IMG/VR virus record: IMGVR_UViG_3300031673_000422
Coordinates: 1 to 26,061 of that record
Length of the DNA: 26,061 bases
Reading direction: 5' to 3' (one strand)
Source: a virus
Shown here: piece after piece, positions 3,853-16,852 of the stretch
Numbering within the stretch: the first letter of the stretch is position 1
Layout of the letters: each line of letters begins with the position of its first letter
The notes under the pieces: model-generated
What the model saw: only the letters and a program-made list of their open reading frames with translations
The model's database searches: none
What the model was told of the DNA's origin: nothing
Translations under genes and position numbers: made by a program

Positions 3853-4115
3853 GGGTTTTCAGTTTGACCTTCTCCTGTTATAAGGTCGATCAGTTCTGTG
3901 AATTGTTCTTCTGAGGCATCAAACAATGCCTCGATTGCTTCGTCTCTGTTTTTTGGTTCAGTTACGAAATCTGCTAAGAAAGCAACCATATCATCAATAG
4001 TTGCTGGGCTTACCCCTTGTCTCATCTTTGCTTTGAACTCTAGTCCTATCTTTGCACGCCTTAAATAACCAGGCGTTTGCGCACTTGGTATTTCAAAAAC
4101 TAATTTACCGGCCAT
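3792..4115 (-). CDS. Tail assembly chaperone, unshifted product (gpG-like)
   Basis: A 107-residue acidic protein with an AAAGGAG ribosome site just before its ATG. The body (about 20-80) is helical, including ATIDDMVAFLADFVTE and EEQFTELIDLITGEG; the last 25 residues are a low-complexity tail (NPTADGKSSMKSEPSETEQQP), typical of the unshifted form, which is made in excess. It lies between tail tube and tape measure, the fixed place of the chaperone that coats the tape measure during tail assembly and is absent from the virion. Together with the -1 frame extension it gives the usual two-product system. Assignment rests on order, size and the overlapping open frame rather than on strong residue conservation. 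Confidence 0.8.
   Translation of the reverse strand: MAGKLVFEIPSAQTPGYLRRAKIGLEFKAKMRQGVSPATIDDMVAFLADFVTEPKNRDEAIEALFDASEEQFTELIDLITGEGQTENPTADGKSSMKSEPSETEQQP
3852..3858 (-). other. Putative -1 ribosomal slippery heptamer A AAC CCT
   Basis: In the register of the 107-codon gene the bases read GAA-AAC-CCT, which fits the X XXY YYZ pattern (AAA, CCC, T). After slipping back one base the codons AAA-CCC continue into an open frame of 62 codons. The site lies immediately after the last stop (TGA) in the -1 frame, which is where a slip must occur. CCC in the second half is less common than AAA or TTT, so efficiency may be modest. The only other phased candidate, T GGG AAA nearer the stop, breaks the rule. 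Confidence 0.6.
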
Positions 4116-4125
4116 TTTTACTCCT

Positions 4126-8350: not shown

Positions 8351-9664
8351 TTATCTCGCGGCCAGTGTCACGAACGGGCTTACTGTGACTGTTCCATGGA
8401 ACGGGGTCAAAGCTGATACCCATGACGGCTGACCATCTGTGCGATATACAAAGCGAAAGCAGGTCTCGTCTTCAATAAACTTAACATGAATTGAACTTGC
8501 CCGCTGCATACCGCCTTTATCAATCATCCAATACTGCGACAAATCTGCCAGGATGATATCTCCAAGGTCTCCAAGGGTTTGGCAATACTCAACCGGAATA
8601 ACCGGTCGTCCCATGAGAGTGCTATATGGAGAACCAGCCAAGCCATTCGCAGGTAGATACACCGGCACGCCAGTTGCACCCACTGCTACATACATGGAAA
8701 ATAACTGCGGCTCAAGATCCTGATTAATGAACCAGATCGCATTTTGGCGACTTGGTGCCCACATTCTGCTCCACATATTCCAAATATTCTCAGTCACAAC
8801 GGTGTCGGCAGCTTGTCCTGCCTCTGCAGGAGTCGGAATAGTGCAAGGGGCGTTCAAAATCCCAAGCGGCTGTCCCGCGCCCGTACCATTGATAACTGCG
8901 TCTTCAATCTGGAATGTGAACTCCATCTGGAACGCCCAGTTAATTACACCCTCAAGTGCTGCAGCGTCCTCGAGCAGCTCATCGGTTGCATAGCACAAAC
9001 CGATTAATTTATTTAGTTCAAGTAGTAGCTGACCAAACGTTGGCTTAGATTTTACTTTCTCGTAAGCTTCTGCCTTCCAATATGCAAGCACTCCACCCCA
9101 TCGTGAACCTGCCTTGCGGCTAGATTCTGAGAGAGTATTCACGCGCAGGCGATTAGAATTCGCGCTGATCGGGAATCTAGTCACGCGACTAAGAATCTCG
9201 CCTTGGATGTATGTCCGCTTGAGTAACTCGGCTGCAAAATCTTCCTGCACCAAGAATCCACCTTCAGCAGGCACACCCTCGGACAAACCGGTCGCCTTTT
9301 CTTCTTCTGCTCGCAAACGGGGATCAGCAATCGCGCCGGATGTCCCCGCTTTAGCAACACTCATTAACTGTTCGCCAAATGACTTGAATCCTAGAATAGG
9401 ACCGGATTCATCCTCTTCACTGGCAGCCATGCCAGCTCCAGCGGCGCGTGTACCAATCCCTTTTTCCAAATAATCAGTCTGTGATTTTAGAGCCATGGCA
9501 ATTTCTAATTTGCCTTTCAACTCCTCTGCCTCTTTAATAAAAGCTTTAAGTTCATCTGTCGCCTCTGAAGGCATTTCACTTTCTTTGCCTTCCCATTCAT
9601 CGGCCTTTGCCTTAGCCTTTGCAAGCACTTCCGCTAAAGCCAATCTTAATTGTTCGATATTCAT
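8351..9664 (-). CDS. Major capsid protein, HK97 fold
   Basis: A 437-residue protein with the two-part plan of HK97-type capsids. Residues 1-65 form a charged coiled coil (AEVLAKAKAKADEWEGKESE) acting as the scaffolding delta domain; about 70-125 is a flexible linker likely holding the protease cut. The capsid fold begins near 130 with LSEGVPAEGGFLVQEDFAAE, followed by RVTRFPISANSNRLRV, the E-loop-like region with AGSRWGGVLAYWKAEAY, and AFQMEFTFQIEDAVINGTGA for the spine and P-domain. The DAVINGTGAGQPLGILN segment is a hallmark of this family. AGGAG lies just upstream of the ATG; the gene begins 2 bases after the protease stop, so both are co-transcribed. Confidence 0.95.
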   Translation of the reverse strand: MNIEQLRLALAEVLAKAKAKADEWEGKESEMPSEATDELKAFIKEAEELKGKLEIAMALKSQTDYLEKGIGTRAAGAGMAASEEDESGPILGFKSFGEQLMSVAKAGTSGAIADPRLRAEEEKATGLSEGVPAEGGFLVQEDFAAELLKRTYIQGEILSRVTRFPISANSNRLRVNTLSESSRKAGSRWGGVLAYWKAEAYEKVKSKPTFGQLLLELNKLIGLCYATDELLEDAAALEGVINWAFQMEFTFQIEDAVINGTGAGQPLGILNAPCTIPTPAEAGQAADTVVTENIWNMWSRMWAPSRQNAIWFINQDLEPQLFSMYVAVGATGVPVYLPANGLAGSPYSTLMGRPVIPVEYCQTLGDLGDIILADLSQYWMIDKGGMQRASSIHVKFIEDETCFRFVYRTDGQPSWVSALTPFHGTVTVSPFVTLAAR

Positions 9665-9666
9665 TT

Positions 9667-10767
9667 TTACACTCCTAAAACGTCTAGTTGTCTTGTTAGA
9701 ATATCTAATCTATCCAAGGTTAGCTCAGTGAGTGCTGGATCTGTTCCATCGATCTCTAGCGGCTCGGCTGTAATTAACAACTCTCGTAAATCAGAAATTG
9801 CTTTCTCGACTTTAATTACTCTGCTTTCAAAATACCCATCCATGCCATTCTTCATATCCTCTTCTGAAATCAAGAGAATTGAACCCATAGCCTCAATGAA
9901 TTTAAAAGCAGGCGGTTCTTTATCAAACTGGGCGTAGTGTTTTGCCAGGTGGTTATAAACCCCTTTTCTATCAGCAGTTGGTATTTCAACTCCACCTCGC
10001 GCGCCCATCATCGCTGCCATTGCAGCGGCTACACCTCTCCAAACAGCAGGGCCTACTCCACTTTTGCCTCCCCTATGATGAGGCAATTTCACGCCCCCAA
10101 ATGTTTCGGGAGGCATTTGTTCTGCCCAAGCATAGTGGTTAGCGATTCTGCTTTTTTCTGCACTTGACATATCAGCCCAAAGCTCGCTAGTGAAATCTCC
10201 TAGCGTTGGTGCCTTCCATGCTCCGGTTTCGTCTTTGCCAGTGTCCTTAAACGGGACGGCTGCTTTGACTGCTACCGTGGCAGGATTAGCACCCCAATTT
10301 ACATCTGATATATCCCACAACCTGATCTCGCGTAAGTTGCGAACTAGTTGGGGAGGCGCTTTCTTTTCCTCATCAAAATCAAACTTGATAGGATCAAACC
10401 CAAATGACATCTCCTTAATTGCGCCTGCAATAATTCCCTGTAGCACTTCATTTCCCCGAATAGTATCCAGATATTCTCTAGTCACTTGAAGTCCGCCAGT
10501 GGCTTCAGGGTATTCATCCTGTATGCCGGCTGGCAGTTCTCTCCTAGAAACTTCTTTTAATTCTTTTATCGCAGCAACAGGCGGATCTCTGAAACTATGC
10601 TGCCACAAATGGCGAATATGCTTCATTCCTTCCTTGATAGTTTTCTTAAACGCGCCTTTAATTATTCGGTCGCTGCCTAGATCAATATTCCCAAATATAG
10701 CGGCTAACCCCGTGACCGCCCTGCCATCAATTTCCTTGAAGTCGCTTATAAAAGATTTGTACTCCAT
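9667..10767 (-). CDS. Prohead maturation protease (S78 type) with C-terminal extension
   Basis: The start is the ATG at 10767 (MEYKSFISDFKEIDG) with AGGAG four bases upstream; the longer TTG-started frame runs through a terminator and is rejected. The product has 366 residues. Residues 1-170 are the HK97-type protease: GLAAIFGNIDLGSDRIIKGA, catalytic His57 in LWQHS, catalytic Ser121 in KEMSFGF, and DISDVNWGANPATV. It digests the capsid delta domain inside the prohead. Residues about 185-290 form a second domain (SRIANHYAWAEQMPPETFGG, VAAAMAAMMGARGG, VYNHLAKHYAQFDKEPP) seen as a tail on phage proteases; 300-366 are helical, possibly scaffold-like. It is the first gene after a promoter/terminator leader, so its expression is probably conditional. 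Confidence 0.93.
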   Translation of the reverse strand: MEYKSFISDFKEIDGRAVTGLAAIFGNIDLGSDRIIKGAFKKTIKEGMKHIRHLWQHSFRDPPVAAIKELKEVSRRELPAGIQDEYPEATGGLQVTREYLDTIRGNEVLQGIIAGAIKEMSFGFDPIKFDFDEEKKAPPQLVRNLREIRLWDISDVNWGANPATVAVKAAVPFKDTGKDETGAWKAPTLGDFTSELWADMSSAEKSRIANHYAWAEQMPPETFGGVKLPHHRGGKSGVGPAVWRGVAAAMAAMMGARGGVEIPTADRKGVYNHLAKHYAQFDKEPPAFKFIEAMGSILLISEEDMKNGMDGYFESRVIKVEKAISDLRELLITAEPLEIDGTDPALTELTLDRLDILTRQLDVLGV

Positions 10768-10779
10768 ATTACTCCTAAT

Positions 10780-10809
10780 AAAAAAAGCCCACTCCAAAAA
10801 GGAGCGGGC
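10780..10809 (-). terminator. Intrinsic terminator just upstream of the protease gene
   Basis: On the minus strand a 9-bp stem, GCCCGCTCC with GGAGTGGGC (eight Watson-Crick pairs and one G-U), encloses TTTTT and is followed at once by seven Ts. It ends 12 bases before the protease ATG, leaving no room for a promoter between them, so transcripts for the capsid genes must read through it. This suggests an attenuator or an antitermination target. Confidence 0.88.
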
Positions 10810-10830
10810 AATTTGACTGCTCTCGTTAAT

Positions 10831-10848
10831 GCGATCCCGAAGGATTGC
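10831..10848 (-). promoter_or_regulatory. UUCG-tetraloop hairpin in the capsid-operon leader
   Basis: The minus strand reads GCAATCC-TTCG-GGATCGC: a 7-bp stem with one A-C mismatch and the very stable C(UUCG)G loop. It lies about 20 bases upstream of the terminator and just downstream of the predicted transcription start. It could nucleate leader folding or be a protein or antiterminator contact; function is inferred only. Confidence 0.6.
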
Positions 10849-10858
10849 TGTTTAGTTT

Positions 10859-10888
10859 ATTATATCATTAATTCATTAAATCTGTATC
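10859..10888 (-). promoter_or_regulatory. Putative extended -10 promoter for head genes
   Basis: The minus strand holds TGATATAAT (10867-10859), a perfect TATAAT with the TGn extension. An imperfect -35, GATACA, lies 18 bases upstream and overlaps a phased repeat. Transcription should start near 10852 and give a leader of about 85 bases that holds the UUCG hairpin and the terminator before the protease start. The sites are seen; activity is inferred. Confidence 0.6.
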
Positions 10889-10910
10889 TTTCTGTATCAT
10901 TCTGTAACCC
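10881..10910. repeat. Three 10-bp-phased TCTGTA repeats at the promoter
   Basis: On the plus strand TCTGTATCTT, TCTGTATCAT and TCTGTAACCC follow each other with an exact 10-base period, about one helical turn. They cover the -35 region of the putative head promoter and the last codons of the metallopeptidase gene. Such phasing would place three copies on one DNA face, as for an activator or repressor site. Confidence 0.6.
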
Positions 10911-11268
10911 TATAAAATGGTTGAAACATCTCTGGCAAGGCATTAATATCGCCACCAGCTGCCCACCATAACCTTGCATAGGCTTCTGTATATAAACAAT
11001 TTTCTGTTTCTCTAATGCAGGTGGTATTCTCTAATAGGATAGGCAGGAATGCATCTATCAGAGCTTTGAATTCATCAGTTTGCGATGGTCTGTCAAGACT
11101 CCAATCTAATCGGTGCCCTTGTTCATGTATGCAGCTCTGTGTATCCGTGCAAAAGATAAAATCAAACTCGGGACAGTAGAAGCCTCCCCAACCATTTATT
11201 GAAAGTATCAAACCCGCACAACCAAATATTAAAAATACCAAGGCAGCGATTATTCGAATAACTCTCAT
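10897..11268 (-). CDS. Small membrane-anchored HEXXH metallopeptidase-like protein
   Basis: A 123-residue protein with an N-terminal hydrophobic segment (about 3-24, RIIAALVFLIFGCAGLILS) that could be a membrane anchor or a poor lipoprotein signal (Cys17). HEQGH at 48-52 matches the zinc-metallopeptidase HEXXH motif and is followed by RLDWS. TEAYARLWWAAGGD at 94-107 offers Glu95 as third zinc ligand, and LPEMFQPFYRVTE closes the chain. The HEXGH...EAYA...F..FY arrangement is that of compact gluzincin-like peptidases such as the ATLF-like group. Cysteines 32, 40, 46, 84 and 91 suggest disulphides in an extracytoplasmic domain. The ATG overlaps the preceding 36-codon gene (ATGA). Substrate is unknown; a role at the cell envelope during lysis or entry is possible. 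It is much smaller than most such enzymes. Confidence 0.72.
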   Translation of the reverse strand: MRVIRIIAALVFLIFGCAGLILSINGWGGFYCPEFDFIFCTDTQSCIHEQGHRLDWSLDRPSQTDEFKALIDAFLPILLENTTCIRETENCLYTEAYARLWWAAGGDINALPEMFQPFYRVTE

Positions 11269-11375
11269 TCTCTTAAATTATATCTCTTTTCTATAAATCT
11301 CACAATCATTAAAATTGCCTGACGCATTACCATTAATAGCGGTTTTATGTGTTTCCAAAATTCAATTTCACTCAT
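11265..11375 (-). CDS. 36-residue amphipathic or membrane peptide
   Basis: Hand translation gives MSEIEFWKHIKPLLMVMRQA continuing ILMIVRFIEKRYNLRE. The centre (13-26) is hydrophobic and both ends are charged, so it could be a short membrane or amphipathic helix. It starts inside the last codons of the upstream gene (8-base overlap) and its TGA overlaps the ATG of the metallopeptidase gene, so the open frame exactly fills the gap between the two. There is no clear ribosome site; translation would rely on coupling. The perfect nesting of both ends is the main support. Confidence 0.6.
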   Translation of the reverse strand: MSEIEFWKHIKPLLMVMRQAILMIVRFIEKRYNLRE

Positions 11376-12003
11376 GTAAGAAATACCTAAAATGAACATT
11401 CAATGTTTTCGCAGCAGCGGTAGCACACATCGCCCTATAATAGACTGTCTCTCCTGCCGGTATCAATGCGCCACGCACTCGTGGAGATTGTGCAGTAGGA
11501 AGTTTGTTCGTTTCAGTCAGAACCCTATGTCGACTAATTATTGTTTTGGATGCGCCATAACTAATTTCTATCATAAATCGAGTTGCGTCTTGATTCGTCT
11601 CCTCAACCAGCATAGCTGTAATGTGCCCAGGATAAGTAGCAAACTTAGAAGATAGCAATACGGGCACTCCTTGATCGTCTGCAATTTCAGTCCAGCCTGT
11701 CCATGTATTAGCATCTGCATGTGCAGTTAAAATACATAGATTCGCTGTGCTTTCAGGAAAAATAACCGTAGCGTGATTTTCGTGCTCTACTAAAAGTTCC
11801 GAATCAACTACTATCTGCTTTACATAAGCCATTACCAAATCAGTATCAGTAACACCTCCAGCGGCCTCCGCCGTATTCAAAGCACCTAAAACAGAAGCTA
11901 ACGCGGCATTATTCGTACCGCGCATAGCTTCCCCATTAAGACCCGCAACCTCGGCGAGAATTGTTGCTATATCAGGACTTGTCCCAGGATTATGTACTGT
12001 CAT
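11368..12003 (-). CDS. MTVHxPG-tagged virion-type protein 3
   Basis: A 211-residue protein starting MTVHNPGTSPDIATILAEVA. Only the first residues match the two upstream paralogues; the body differs. Residues about 8-55 are helical; about 70-211 are strand-rich and end with VRGALIPAGETVYYRAMCAT and LNVHFRYFLHE, the look of phage structural beta domains that carry an assembly surface. No catalytic motif. It starts in an ATGA overlap with GAGGCGGT upstream. The shared tag on an unrelated body suggests that MTVHxPG is a targeting or docking sequence. Virion location is inferred from context. Confidence 0.7.
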   Translation of the reverse strand: MTVHNPGTSPDIATILAEVAGLNGEAMRGTNNAALASVLGALNTAEAAGGVTDTDLVMAYVKQIVVDSELLVEHENHATVIFPESTANLCILTAHADANTWTGWTEIADDQGVPVLLSSKFATYPGHITAMLVEETNQDATRFMIEISYGASKTIISRHRVLTETNKLPTAQSPRVRGALIPAGETVYYRAMCATAAAKTLNVHFRYFLHE

Positions 12004-12592: not shown

Positions 12593-13183
12593 TTAAGTGG
12601 GCGGATAATAACGGTATAAGTATCCGCTGCTGTTCAACGGCCGCCAAACAATTTCGTGGCATACCGTAAAATCAACGGGGCCGCCAGTGGAAGTAAAGTG
12701 AAGCCTCATCCTTGTGGCTGCTCCATTCTTAGCATTCACAATAAATGGGGCAGAAAGTTCCAATCCCACCGCACCATCTACAATCCGCGCTTGGTCTGAA
12801 TCCATTAAATTAACCGCCGCCAAGCTAGTATCAATCCTTCCCAATAAGGAAGCAACCTCAACATTAGTGCAATCCGTTCCATCTAATGTTATATCCACAG
12901 CATTGGTTCTGTCGTAAAGGTCATAATATAATTTTGTTGGTGCTGCTGCCGTATTATCTGCATTCCAGAAATATGACCAAAACCGTAAAACTTCTATTGT
13001 TCCCCATACTGTTGCAAACTCAAAGGAGTAGGCGGCTGCTTGCGTGTCTCCGATAACCTCTACACATTGCCCCATCACTGTTCCGGCTCTGGTGTAATAA
13101 TCATAGAAGCTATTCCAAGCAACCTCCATGCCGAACTTCCAGCTAAGAGTTACAAACGGATCTCCTGGCTCGTGTACGGTCAT
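12593..13183 (-). CDS. MTVHxPG-tagged virion-type protein 1
   Basis: A 196-residue protein beginning MTVHEPGDPFVTLSWKFGME. It is a paralogue of the next downstream gene (same SDQARIVDGAVGLELSAPF block and IVWRPL end) with an extended C-terminus SSGYLYRYYPPT. The middle is aromatic and strand-rich (IEVLRFWSYFWNADN). It starts in an ATGA overlap with the 99-codon gene, so the four small genes form one translational chain. Structural role, perhaps head decoration or receptor-contact protein, is inferred from fold style and location. Confidence 0.72.
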   Translation of the reverse strand: MTVHEPGDPFVTLSWKFGMEVAWNSFYDYYTRAGTVMGQCVEVIGDTQAAAYSFEFATVWGTIEVLRFWSYFWNADNTAAAPTKLYYDLYDRTNAVDITLDGTDCTNVEVASLLGRIDTSLAAVNLMDSDQARIVDGAVGLELSAPFIVNAKNGAATRMRLHFTSTGGPVDFTVCHEIVWRPLNSSGYLYRYYPPT

Positions 13184-13479
13184 TCAACCATAACCTCATA
13201 GATCCATTCAACAACATCATCATCTTCAGTAGCATCAACCCAAACATCGCTTATATTATCAACCTGAAGTCCAACACTGCCCGCCGGGATAATACTAAAA
13301 TGATGTGCTTCTGCTTGTGCCTTTGTGTTGCCAAGATATAAAAGCCCAGTATTAGTTGATCTTGATCGAAACACTGCGAAATTTCCCTGCGGTATATCTG
13401 CAGCCGTGCATTGTTCTGCGGTTCCGGCTGATGCAATCGCATTTGATCCTACCCTAAAACTTGGTCTATTACTTCCCAT
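13180..13479 (-). CDS. Small beta-rich head protein, decoration or cement type
   Basis: A 99-residue protein with a strong AGGAGG ribosome site. The pattern IPQGNFAVFRSRSTNTGLLY, LGNTKAQAEAHHF, IPAGSVGLQVDNISDVWVDA and a closing YEVMV strand is a known style of short phage virion proteins in which an alternating strand and turn unit places one side against the capsid. No catalytic or metal motif. Its ATGA overlap with the following MTVHxPG gene ties both together. Naming it decoration or cement protein is an inference from length, fold style and context. Confidence 0.68.
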   Translation of the reverse strand: MGSNRPSFRVGSNAIASAGTAEQCTAADIPQGNFAVFRSRSTNTGLLYLGNTKAQAEAHHFSIIPAGSVGLQVDNISDVWVDATEDDDVVEWIYEVMVE

Positions 13480-13481
13480 AT

Positions 13482-13898
13482 TTACCTCCTAATTAATCTT
13501 TTCACCATCTTATCATAAAAATCAACAACAGTTTTTCTTGCTTTCTCTACTACCGACTGTAACGTGTACCAACCAGTTCTTTTATGAACACTCGTTTGCG
13601 GCCCAACTTCATCGACCGCCTTGCTGCTAATCACCCAGGGAGCATAGACTGTAGGACTGCCAATTACTCCGGCAATCTCGCCTCCTATTGTTTTCACCTG
13701 TGTGTTTATCCCTCTGCCCAACGTGCCGGTTCTTTTATATGTACTGCCTACTGGGGGGGCAGGATAAGGCGGTACCGTCCCATGAACATAAAACAATGCC
13801 TTTTGAGTAGTATCAGTTAATTCTTTTTTCAATTCCGGTCCGCTCATGCCCTTGAGTTTCTTGTTTAGTTTATCCAATCCTTTAATTGTATATTCCAT
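13482..13898 (-). CDS. HK97 gp10-like morphogenesis protein
   Basis: A 138-residue basic protein with a GAGGAAAC ribosome site. It starts MEYTIKGLDKLNKKLKGMSG, continues with a helix (ELKKELTDTTQKALFYVHG), then the PPYPAPPVGSTYKRTGTLGR turn and strands (VAPW-like YAPWVISSKA), ending in a basic helix (KARKTVVDFYDKMVKRLIRR). This is the layout of the HK97 gp10 / minor tail assembly family, which acts at the head-tail junction. Usually the gene lies between connector and terminator genes; here it is far upstream, directly after the MuF-like gene, which is unusual. Confidence 0.85.
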   Translation of the reverse strand: MEYTIKGLDKLNKKLKGMSGPELKKELTDTTQKALFYVHGTVPPYPAPPVGSTYKRTGTLGRGINTQVKTIGGEIAGVIGSPTVYAPWVISSKAVDEVGPQTSVHKRTGWYTLQSVVEKARKTVVDFYDKMVKRLIRR

Positions 13899-14658: not shown

Positions 14659-16047
14659 CTATCCTTTCAACGTTTCCGCTTCTGCTTCATCCAATACCCT
14701 ATTCTTTTGTTTCCGTAGGTAAGTTGTCATCTGTTTGGTTATTTCATTCTCGTCCTTCACTCGACCTCCTGCATCCAAAAGTTTAGATTCTAACATATCG
14801 ATTACTTGTTTTGTCGCTCCTTCCTCCATCACAGGTACGTCAAATTGATTCAAGGTTCTAATCAATACATCGCCACCGCGCAATCGTGATAGGTTAATCC
14901 CTTCTCTGAATTCATTCACCGTAATGCCCCCTGCGGTCAATGCGGCCAAGTATCTTTCCCATAATTTCTGTGCTTCCTCTTGGTATGCCGCTACTTGTGA
15001 AAAGTCCCACTTAACCATAATATTATCGCCGAATTCAGGCACCAGTCGCGCATTAATAATATCATCGTAGTGTTGGTACATCGGAGAGATAGTATCCTGC
15101 CACCAGGCTTTCCTCGCCTCACCGTAATTAGCATAAGTAGCCCGCTTCAATCCAACTGCAGCACCCACCAAGATGGGCGGTACGTCTAGTACCATGCAAA
15201 TACGGGCTTCATTGCGTTCATCTAGTGTCTCGAATCCCATTTCGCTAAATGATAACCCCGTCTTTTGATATTCAGCATCGGCGTCTAGCACTGCAGGAGA
15301 TAGCCATTTCATATAACCACCATAGCGTTGCTCCCACCTGCGCCTAATCGCTTTTACTTGAGCATCCTGTAAATGCTGTGTAGTTTTTAGTATTCCAGGT
15401 GGTATCCCTCCTCTTTCCCAAAACAACTTAATAAAATCAGTAGAACTATTGTCCACATCCCCTATTCTCGCGGCTACCGCCACAGGCGGCCAACCTCGAT
15501 ACATATTCAGCGGGTCAAAGTTCTTAAACACCAGTATATCTTCTTTAGGCACAATAATTTCACCAGTTAAGCCTGGGACTTTATATAAATAATGAGAAAT
15601 AAACTCAGTAGATGATTTAACCGGATTAAGCCAATCTGGTCTCAACGGCCATAATCCTACCGTCCGCCCCGCTGCGGATCGCTCTTTTTCCCAGTATGAT
15701 ACTCCGGCTAAATCTCCATAGATAGCATTTGCCGACCAGAAATCAAATTCCGCCATTTCGCTGTTAGGCGATTGTATTAATTTCCTCAATGGATGATCGG
15801 GGAGTTCCTCTTGTGATTTTTTATCATATACCCTTAAAGCCACCTGACTTGCCGAATTAGCGGTTTTGGCAATGCAAGCGAATATTAATTCATTCTTACG
15901 ATAACCTAATGTGGCCATCGTCTTGAAATCAACTTCTGAATATGATGGTTTGCCCTCCTCCCAGCTACTTACTCTAGTAGCCTGTAGTGCTTTCTCTCCG
16001 CCCATAATAACTCTGAATCCGAATAATAGTCTATCAAATATGTTCAT
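14659..16047 (-). CDS. Portal protein, HK97 type
   Basis: I start it at the ATG at 16047 (MNIFDRLLFGFRVIMGG) preceded by AAGGAG; an N-terminal extension of 28 codons in the same frame lies over the radical SAM gene and is rejected. The 462-residue product shows family segments: RKNELIFACIAKTANSASQV, ELPDHPLRKLIQSPN, the wing region with GLWPLRPDWLNPVKSS, DILVFKNFDPLNMYRGWPPV, LFWERGGIPPGILKTTQHL, and VLDVPPILVGAAVGLKRATY ANY-type clip/stem sequence. Twelve copies form the DNA gate at one capsid vertex and dock the terminase. It overlaps the radical SAM gene by 14 bases and is followed by the small AGGAGG gene. Confidence 0.95.
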   Translation of the reverse strand: MNIFDRLLFGFRVIMGGEKALQATRVSSWEEGKPSYSEVDFKTMATLGYRKNELIFACIAKTANSASQVALRVYDKKSQEELPDHPLRKLIQSPNSEMAEFDFWSANAIYGDLAGVSYWEKERSAAGRTVGLWPLRPDWLNPVKSSTEFISHYLYKVPGLTGEIIVPKEDILVFKNFDPLNMYRGWPPVAVAARIGDVDNSSTDFIKLFWERGGIPPGILKTTQHLQDAQVKAIRRRWEQRYGGYMKWLSPAVLDADAEYQKTGLSFSEMGFETLDERNEARICMVLDVPPILVGAAVGLKRATYANYGEARKAWWQDTISPMYQHYDDIINARLVPEFGDNIMVKWDFSQVAAYQEEAQKLWERYLAALTAGGITVNEFREGINLSRLRGGDVLIRTLNQFDVPVMEEGATKQVIDMLESKLLDAGGRVKDENEITKQMTTYLRKQKNRVLDEAEAETLKG

Positions 16048-16852
16048 AATTGCTCCTTGCATAAATAATTTCTGGTCGTGTCCATAATCGCTGAAACTTT
16101 TTCCACTCTTGATTTGTTTTTCCTTCATCATCTCGCCACAACATAGCGAATGGCATAAAACCCAAATTTAGCGTATCAGTTAATCTTTTCTCCGCTTTGC
16201 TTATTGTATCACCAGGAAAACCAATCAGATTATAACAACAAACATTGTGAGATGGCAATAAGTGTACTTCTATAAGTAGTTTTGATACATGCGCTAATGA
16301 TTCATAATCATCTGGAGTGTCGTATGCAAAATAAATTCTTTGCGGTTTTAGATCAACTAATAATTCAACATGCCAATCTTCCAGCAGGTATGCTTGTAAT
16401 CCGCCACTGAATATTGCCTTCTTCGGTTGTCTTTTCAACATTTGAAATACAGCCCTAATATGCTTTTCAGAACAAGCAAGTAAGTTATCGTCTTGTACAT
16501 TCCAGCCATCTTTTATTTCTAGTTCTTCAAACTTACCTTTGCATCGTTTCCAAACATAGCAAAACCAACATTTATTAGGACATCCTCTGCTGGTTATCGT
16601 GTTCCCCTTGCGTAAAAATCTCCCTGGTATAAATTCCCCCATTACATTCCCATAAGCTGGACCACCCAATTCAACAGGCGCGATCCATTTCCATGCCTTT
16701 GCTAATCGTTCAGCTTCTGGCTTATCCCATGTGAAAGTACAAGACACTAATATTTTGTCGGCTTTTACAAATAGTGTAGGATCTCCAACATAAGCATCTC
16801 GATCATCTGGTGTTTGGTTTGTTTTTCTAGGAAATACCCTGATCGCTTTCAT
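16034..16852 (-). CDS. Radical SAM enzyme, phage-encoded, substrate unknown
   Basis: A 272-residue protein with the canonical CxxxCxxC iron-sulphur motif, CPNKCWFC at 91-98. FSGGL (148-152) probably matches the SAM-contacting GG motif. YFAYDTPDD and NLIGFPGDT are strand and loop elements typical of the partial TIM barrel. Residues 1-75 resemble a Rossmann-like, B12-binding-type domain (DPTLFVKADKILVSCTFTWD and WIAPVELGGPAYG), though no cobalamin DxHxxG motif is present. Further cysteines at 104 and 127 could hold another ligand. AAGGAGG lies 9 bases before the ATG. The gene is lodged between terminase and portal genes and overlaps both neighbours, so it is a settled part of the late transcript. 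Substrate (DNA, RNA, protein or metabolite) cannot be told. Confidence 0.88.
   Translation of the reverse strand: MKAIRVFPRKTNQTPDDRDAYVGDPTLFVKADKILVSCTFTWDKPEAERLAKAWKWIAPVELGGPAYGNVMGEFIPGRFLRKGNTITSRGCPNKCWFCYVWKRCKGKFEELEIKDGWNVQDDNLLACSEKHIRAVFQMLKRQPKKAIFSGGLQAYLLEDWHVELLVDLKPQRIYFAYDTPDDYESLAHVSKLLIEVHLLPSHNVCCYNLIGFPGDTISKAEKRLTDTLNLGFMPFAMLWRDDEGKTNQEWKKFQRLWTRPEIIYARSNYEHI

Follow-up and report, generated by a model that had tools for sequence, protein, structure and literature searches.

A conserved phage leader RNA with a terminator and an overlapping candidate antiterminator, at the edge of a variable cargo slot in a head gene operon

Within the 26,061-base IMG/VR virus record studied here (the window, which is the entire record), we observe an uncharacterised class of leader: a unit of about 100 nt, running from a -10 promoter box to a Shine-Dalgarno sequence, that stands before the head maturation protease gene and probably sets how much of the downstream head genes is transcribed. 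As read from its sequence, the leader works like known attenuators with an overlapping antiterminator, and it lies at a moron-like slot for variable genes. What is new is the leader class and its unusual genetic setting, the attenuator being a kind that is already known. The timing of phage head genes is commonly ascribed to late promoters or to operon-wide antitermination factors. Here, a small conserved RNA is predicted inside the head operon, bordering a cargo slot, and in one genome it appears to have been relocated to a position in front of another head gene. Should it act as a switch, it would illustrate how a phage can keep exchanging passenger genes in its most highly expressed operon while head production stays undisturbed, and it would put a compact new transcription switch on offer.

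Nearly all long gene-like ORFs of the window are carried by the minus strand, as is the unit itself (10867-10765). The elements listed by a first-pass annotation, namely an extended -10 box, a hairpin of C(UUCG)G type, a terminator whose 9-bp stem is followed by seven Ts, the AGGAG motif and the start codon (ATG) of the protease, are all present, and they are arranged as follows.

10859-10867, minus strand: predicted extended -10 promoter box, TGATATAAT, with TATAAT invariant across all copies
10780-10851, minus strand: predicted leader, or short terminated RNA, of about 72 nt (covariance model R1, 120.9 bits)
10831-10848, minus strand: hairpin P1 with a UUCG tetraloop, GCAATCC-TTCG-GGATCGC (three pairs changed on both sides among the copies; in the L035 copy, a GCGA tetraloop replaces UUCG)
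10802-10822, minus strand: putative antiterminator hairpin, GAGCAGTC-AAATT-GCCCGCTC, mutually exclusive with the terminator (seven pairs in 8/8 distinct copies, two of them with double changes, and two conserved 1x1 mismatches)
10787-10809, minus strand: terminator stem-loop of nine pairs, seven of them G-C (97% of cells paired over eight distinct copies)
10780-10786, minus strand: T-tract of the terminator, T7 by sequence (TTTATTTATT in most relatives)
10772-10776, minus strand: Shine-Dalgarno AGGAG of the downstream gene, at a similar distance past the T-tract in all copies

The predicted transcription start in the window is A10851, the eighth base after TATAAT (the seventh in most copies), and the spacing from TATAAT to ACAGC is 6-7 nt. 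There is no good -35 element upstream of the window's -10 box and no -35 conservation across the copies, in which the sequence 5' of the -10 box is not conserved. By itself, TGnTATAAT occurs at chance frequency in the window (3 found versus 2.06 expected), and the significance of the unit therefore derives from its being kept whole in relatives rather than from the -10 string. The terminator, on the other hand, ranks first among the minus-strand terminator-like sites of the whole window; in a 40-kb relative, the leader terminator is also among the best coding-strand terminators, and in both genomes the leader terminators stand directly before core genes. Predicted promoter, leader, terminator and gene thus follow in the order expected of an attenuator, and because the gap between T-tract and Shine-Dalgarno is too short for a promoter, any transcript that reaches the downstream head genes has to run through the terminator, as had been argued in the first-pass annotation. 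That annotation had also considered control by ribosome occupancy, which we regard as unlikely because no copy has a conserved ATG, GTG or TTG with a Shine-Dalgarno sequence 5' of the terminator.

A single copy of the unit is present in each of eight related IMG/VR contigs (with two identical), those of L026, L027, L024, L028/L045, L029, L030, L031 and L035, which with the window makes nine contigs and eight distinct sequences. Seven contigs were found by pattern scans of the viral collection, and the covariance model then added the divergent L035. Model scores in the relatives are 83.7-129.9 bits, and searches of whole records return one strong copy per genome, including a single strong match in the window. 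The RNA part is 79-90% identical to that of the window, versus mostly 66-71% for aligned neighbouring genes, and the boundaries of conservation fall at the -10 box on one end and at the Shine-Dalgarno on the other. The double changes at three P1 pairs compare with 0 in slid controls. Conserved pairing, the lack of which had been named in advance as a ground for refutation, was looked for and is present. A closing stem proposed by RNAalifold, between a copy of the -10 sequence and UUUAUUUAUUA, was rejected as it is broken without compensation in some copies.

Outside these contigs, Rfam 15 contains no family that matches the leader above its gathering threshold, and a permissive threshold yields chance-level matches only. 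A nucleotide search of phages and plasmids returned only short Listeria matches, covering 27 bases around the terminator arm; in the genome collection there was no match by DNA pattern and none by portal alignment, and the literature, as searched, does not describe a leader of this kind. The earlier suggestion of an uncharacterised phage leader RNA class is thus upheld by conservation in relatives and by the lack of an Rfam match. A pattern match in L025 was judged to be chance. At L057 (record G002, 4025-4120), we observe two hairpins, the second followed by Ts; the stretch scores weakly against the leader model (E 0.08), lacks clear sequence similarity and could be another small RNA.

The most conserved part of the leader is the linker, GAGYNGUCAAAUUGCCCRCUC, which, in a feature that the first-pass annotation did not describe, can form a hairpin using the 5' arm of the terminator. 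Specifically, GAGYNGUC can pair with GCCCRCUC, which is that arm, so that this pairing excludes the terminator. The successive positions are G-C, A-U, G-C, Y-R, mismatch, G-C, mismatch, C-G and A-U, closed by a three-base loop, and across the eight distinct copies, 100% of the cells of the seven pairs are paired. Slid positions give 0 double changes, and 1/500 column shuffles reach the observed score. GAGC/GCUC becomes GAGU/ACUC in L031 and L035, and an A-U pair becomes U-G in L031; the changes at paired positions are all compensated, and the lone changes are those at mismatch and loop positions. As the right arm of the terminator accepts both forms (through G-U or A-U), the terminator does not itself demand the change in the upstream base. 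However, L031 and L035, which both have GAGU/ACUC, cluster in three of four trees built with FastTree, so that the shared change may be one event; this would leave about two independent compensations, and the conservation evidence for the antiterminator is thin for this reason. Linker and arm together fold with an unexceptional energy, one reached by 5-13% of shuffled linkers, and the antiterminator alone has approximately -1 to -3 kcal/mol versus -14 to -19 for the terminator. When the nascent RNA is cut before the 3' arm, the outer antiterminator pairs fold in most, but not all, copies. An antiterminator that is mutually exclusive with the terminator and kept in relatives is thus indicated by the alignment.

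The leader forms the right end of a cassette whose genes and neighbours in the window are listed here.

11265-11375, minus strand: 36-aa small gene (MSEIEFWKHIKPLL..IVRFIEKRYNLRE), the constant left end of the cassette, with homologues in all eight other contigs
10897-11268, minus strand: genome-specific 123-aa cargo gene
9667-10767, minus strand: head maturation (prohead) protease, 366 aa (PF04586, phrog_80)
8351-9664, minus strand: major capsid protein (PF05065, phrog_10)
13180-13479, minus strand: 99-aa structural-block gene, without a leader here (in relatives, the leader precedes its homologue; the empty site is just upstream, at 13480-13500)
11368-12003, minus strand: upstream neighbour gene, whose homologue abuts the protease in L021 and L022

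In the relatives, the order is a Mu F-like head gene, a tail-completion gene, a slot containing a 36-aa-type gene and variable cargo, the leader, the 99-aa gene, further genes, the protease and the capsid gene, with some of the compared contigs stopping before the protease. This placement of the leader before the 99-aa gene and after a hypervariable cargo slot goes beyond the first-pass annotation, and it does not support the special tie to the protease that had been proposed there: in eight of the nine contigs, the leader precedes a gene other than the protease, and it is therefore not specific to the protease, its constant position being before a head-block gene and after cargo. In the window, no leader separates the tail-completion gene from the directly adjoining 99-aa gene, and the cassette of 36-aa gene, 123-aa cargo and leader lies between the 11368-12003 gene and the protease. 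The 11368-12003 homologue of L021 and L022, by contrast, leads directly into the protease through an empty site in which TTCTTACAT is joined to TAGGAG. With both empty sites visible, the simplest reading is that the whole cassette changed place in the lineage of the window, from its usual location to just before the protease, and that it was joined at similar ATTA(A)GGAG strings.

The 36-aa gene overlaps the stop of the gene upstream, and its homologues (30-37 aa) either open the cargo slot on the left or lie inside it, with the leader downstream (8/8 other contigs). Between these constant parts, the cargo varies by genome: L024 and L027 have only the small gene, L026, L029 and L030 add approximately one gene to it, and L031 and L035 add several. 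Comparison of these phages thus reveals a variable gene group placed in a late operon, with empty and filled sites, as is characteristic of a moron. Morons usually have expression of their own, and promoter-like sites do occur here. No integrase is found in the nine records. In the window, the 123-aa cargo ORF has a hydrophobic N-terminus with a cysteine and an HEQGH motif, making a membrane-anchored metallopeptidase-like protein possible; it has no relatives in viral contigs or phages and no match in Pfam, PHROG or NCBIfam.

The reading that we prefer, while holding it at slightly short of even confidence, is that the leader terminates conditionally: a phage or host factor would open it by stabilising the antiterminator, and the entry of polymerase into the head genes would thereby be controlled. 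Transcription would start at the A of ACAGC (10851), as placed by the invariant TATAAT, and the RNA would present P1, the conserved linker and the terminator in turn, ending a few nucleotides short of the Shine-Dalgarno sequence that serves the following head-block gene. As the antiterminator is weak alone, the default would be termination, yielding the RNA of ~72 nt. A factor recognising P1 and/or the mismatch-bearing antiterminator would stabilise the latter and let polymerase pass, whether it came from the local promoter or from upstream, and the resulting read-through would time or scale head gene expression. With the leader as the right end of the cargo slot and the 36-aa gene usually as its left end, the leader would also insulate cargo from head genes. 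No regulator is found among those window ORFs that were compared with Pfam. We consider a bolder extension of this model improbable, in which the leader would be a portable RNA switch, carried along with variable cargo and the gene of a small peptide, that imposes its own conditional termination on any head gene behind it; moving the cassette would then re-wire control, and a new antitermination partner would act in trans, perhaps the 30-37-aa peptide encoded alongside.

A phage small RNA gene would also account for an own -10 box, a compact RNA, a strong terminator and a sequence-conserved linker, all of which are typical of such genes, and the P22 ant moron likewise contains a small RNA gene, sar (PMC2629481). 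Here, the local promoter would produce an RNA of ~72 nt that acts in trans, with the linker GAGC.GUCAAAUUGCCC as its targeting or protein-binding part, and the head genes would be reached by leaky or modified late transcription. We regard this as unlikely, although it deserves serious consideration: the unit always ends at a head-block Shine-Dalgarno, which a small RNA does not need, the compensated pairs overlap the terminator arm so that a single-stranded seed is not left, and the longest antisense match of the linker in other mRNA of the window is 10 nt, while shuffled linkers mostly reach 8-10. The hypervariability of the cargo between 36-aa gene and leader, which ranges from absent to several genes, can instead be taken to mean that the leader is an unregulated boundary of a moron-like cassette, where the terminator would end the cargo transcript, read-through of a fixed fraction would keep a constant cargo-to-head ratio and the -10 box would be a minor re-start promoter. 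In agreement with this, a small gene is followed by an unrelated terminator directly before the protease in both L001 and L040, which are more distant relatives, and this suggests a recurrent need for termination at the protease boundary under any of the three readings. Nevertheless, a fixed boundary leaves unexplained the conservation and compensation of P1 and the linker next to a cargo that shows neither, and the position of TATAAT upstream rather than downstream of the terminator; moreover, L024 and L027 retain the full leader without cargo beyond the 36-aa-type gene. We consider this reading somewhat less likely again, but also worth serious consideration.

The put RNA acts through the zinc-binding domain of the RNA polymerase β' subunit and needs no protein. 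A put-type RNA, which the first-pass annotation had entertained, would bind RNA polymerase and make it ignore this and later terminators, and the leader does resemble HK022 put: it is a short structured RNA of similar length (~70 nt) with which a phage transcript would begin, near a phage promoter (putL is promoter-proximal), and it is linked to termination (PMC9378689). However, put consists of two long stem-loops that act on other terminators further downstream, whereas the second hairpin of the leader is itself the terminator, with an alternative pairing, and the window has no strong downstream coding-strand terminators to suppress. We therefore consider a put-type RNA very improbable. A chance arrangement of promoter-like and terminator-like strings without function could draw on the background frequency of TGnTATAAT in the window and on the lack of an Rfam match, but it is scarcely credible and is refuted by conservation, the whole unit being kept in nine contigs with its pairing retained.

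Among known systems, the conditional terminator that we prefer comes closest to the RAT model, in which a weak antiterminator hairpin is stabilised by a factor (PMC12502629). As in the BglG-SacY-LicT systems, the leader has a weak, mismatch-bearing hairpin that overlaps the 5' part of the terminator and precedes a gene. However, no resemblance to RAT sequences is apparent by eye, those systems serve sugar uptake rather than a phage head operon, and their cognate CAT_RBD protein (PF03123) has no match in the nine phage records, which are incomplete; a host protein is possible. With the lambdoid pR'/tR'/Q system, the leader shares a phage promoter and a terminator shortly downstream, before late genes (PMC6606751), but it is instead located mid-operon, after terminase and portal. 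We observe no conserved Q-binding repeat 5' of the -10 box, no -10-like pause string at the start of the RNA and no Q-type protein in the window. In the P22 ant moron, variable non-structural genes occupy a fixed point in the late operon and are believed to affect late transcription as it enters the gene that follows (PMC2629481). The cargo slot has variable genes at a fixed late-operon point in common with such morons, but here constant parts (36-aa gene and leader RNA) flank the cargo, and the whole cassette has apparently moved in one genome.

Type III toxin-antitoxin leaders have a promoter, a short RNA, a terminator and a gene. Although the leader shares this order, its anatomy speaks against such a system, as it contains no tandem repeats and the downstream genes are head genes rather than a toxin, and we rejected this assignment.

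Several further observations concern these genomes. The terminators before the protease in the more distant relatives lie at L001:2925-2970 and L040:6855-6890, and the small genes preceding them (65 and 53 aa) look alike. L022 contains a second TTAATGATATAATAAA promoter-like string (L022:228-259), nearly identical to that of the leader, before a cargo gene without a leader. In L035 (12927-12960), the 99-aa gene has TAG at codon 8, where the relatives have TGG, reflecting either a real nonsense change or a sequencing error. A radical SAM protein gene (16034-16852, minus strand) lies in the window with terminase on one side and portal on the other. Finally, a head gene of L001 (2-2048) seems, by eye, to be split by an intein-like insert, and one HNH-like and one LAGLIDADG-like gene lie close to it.
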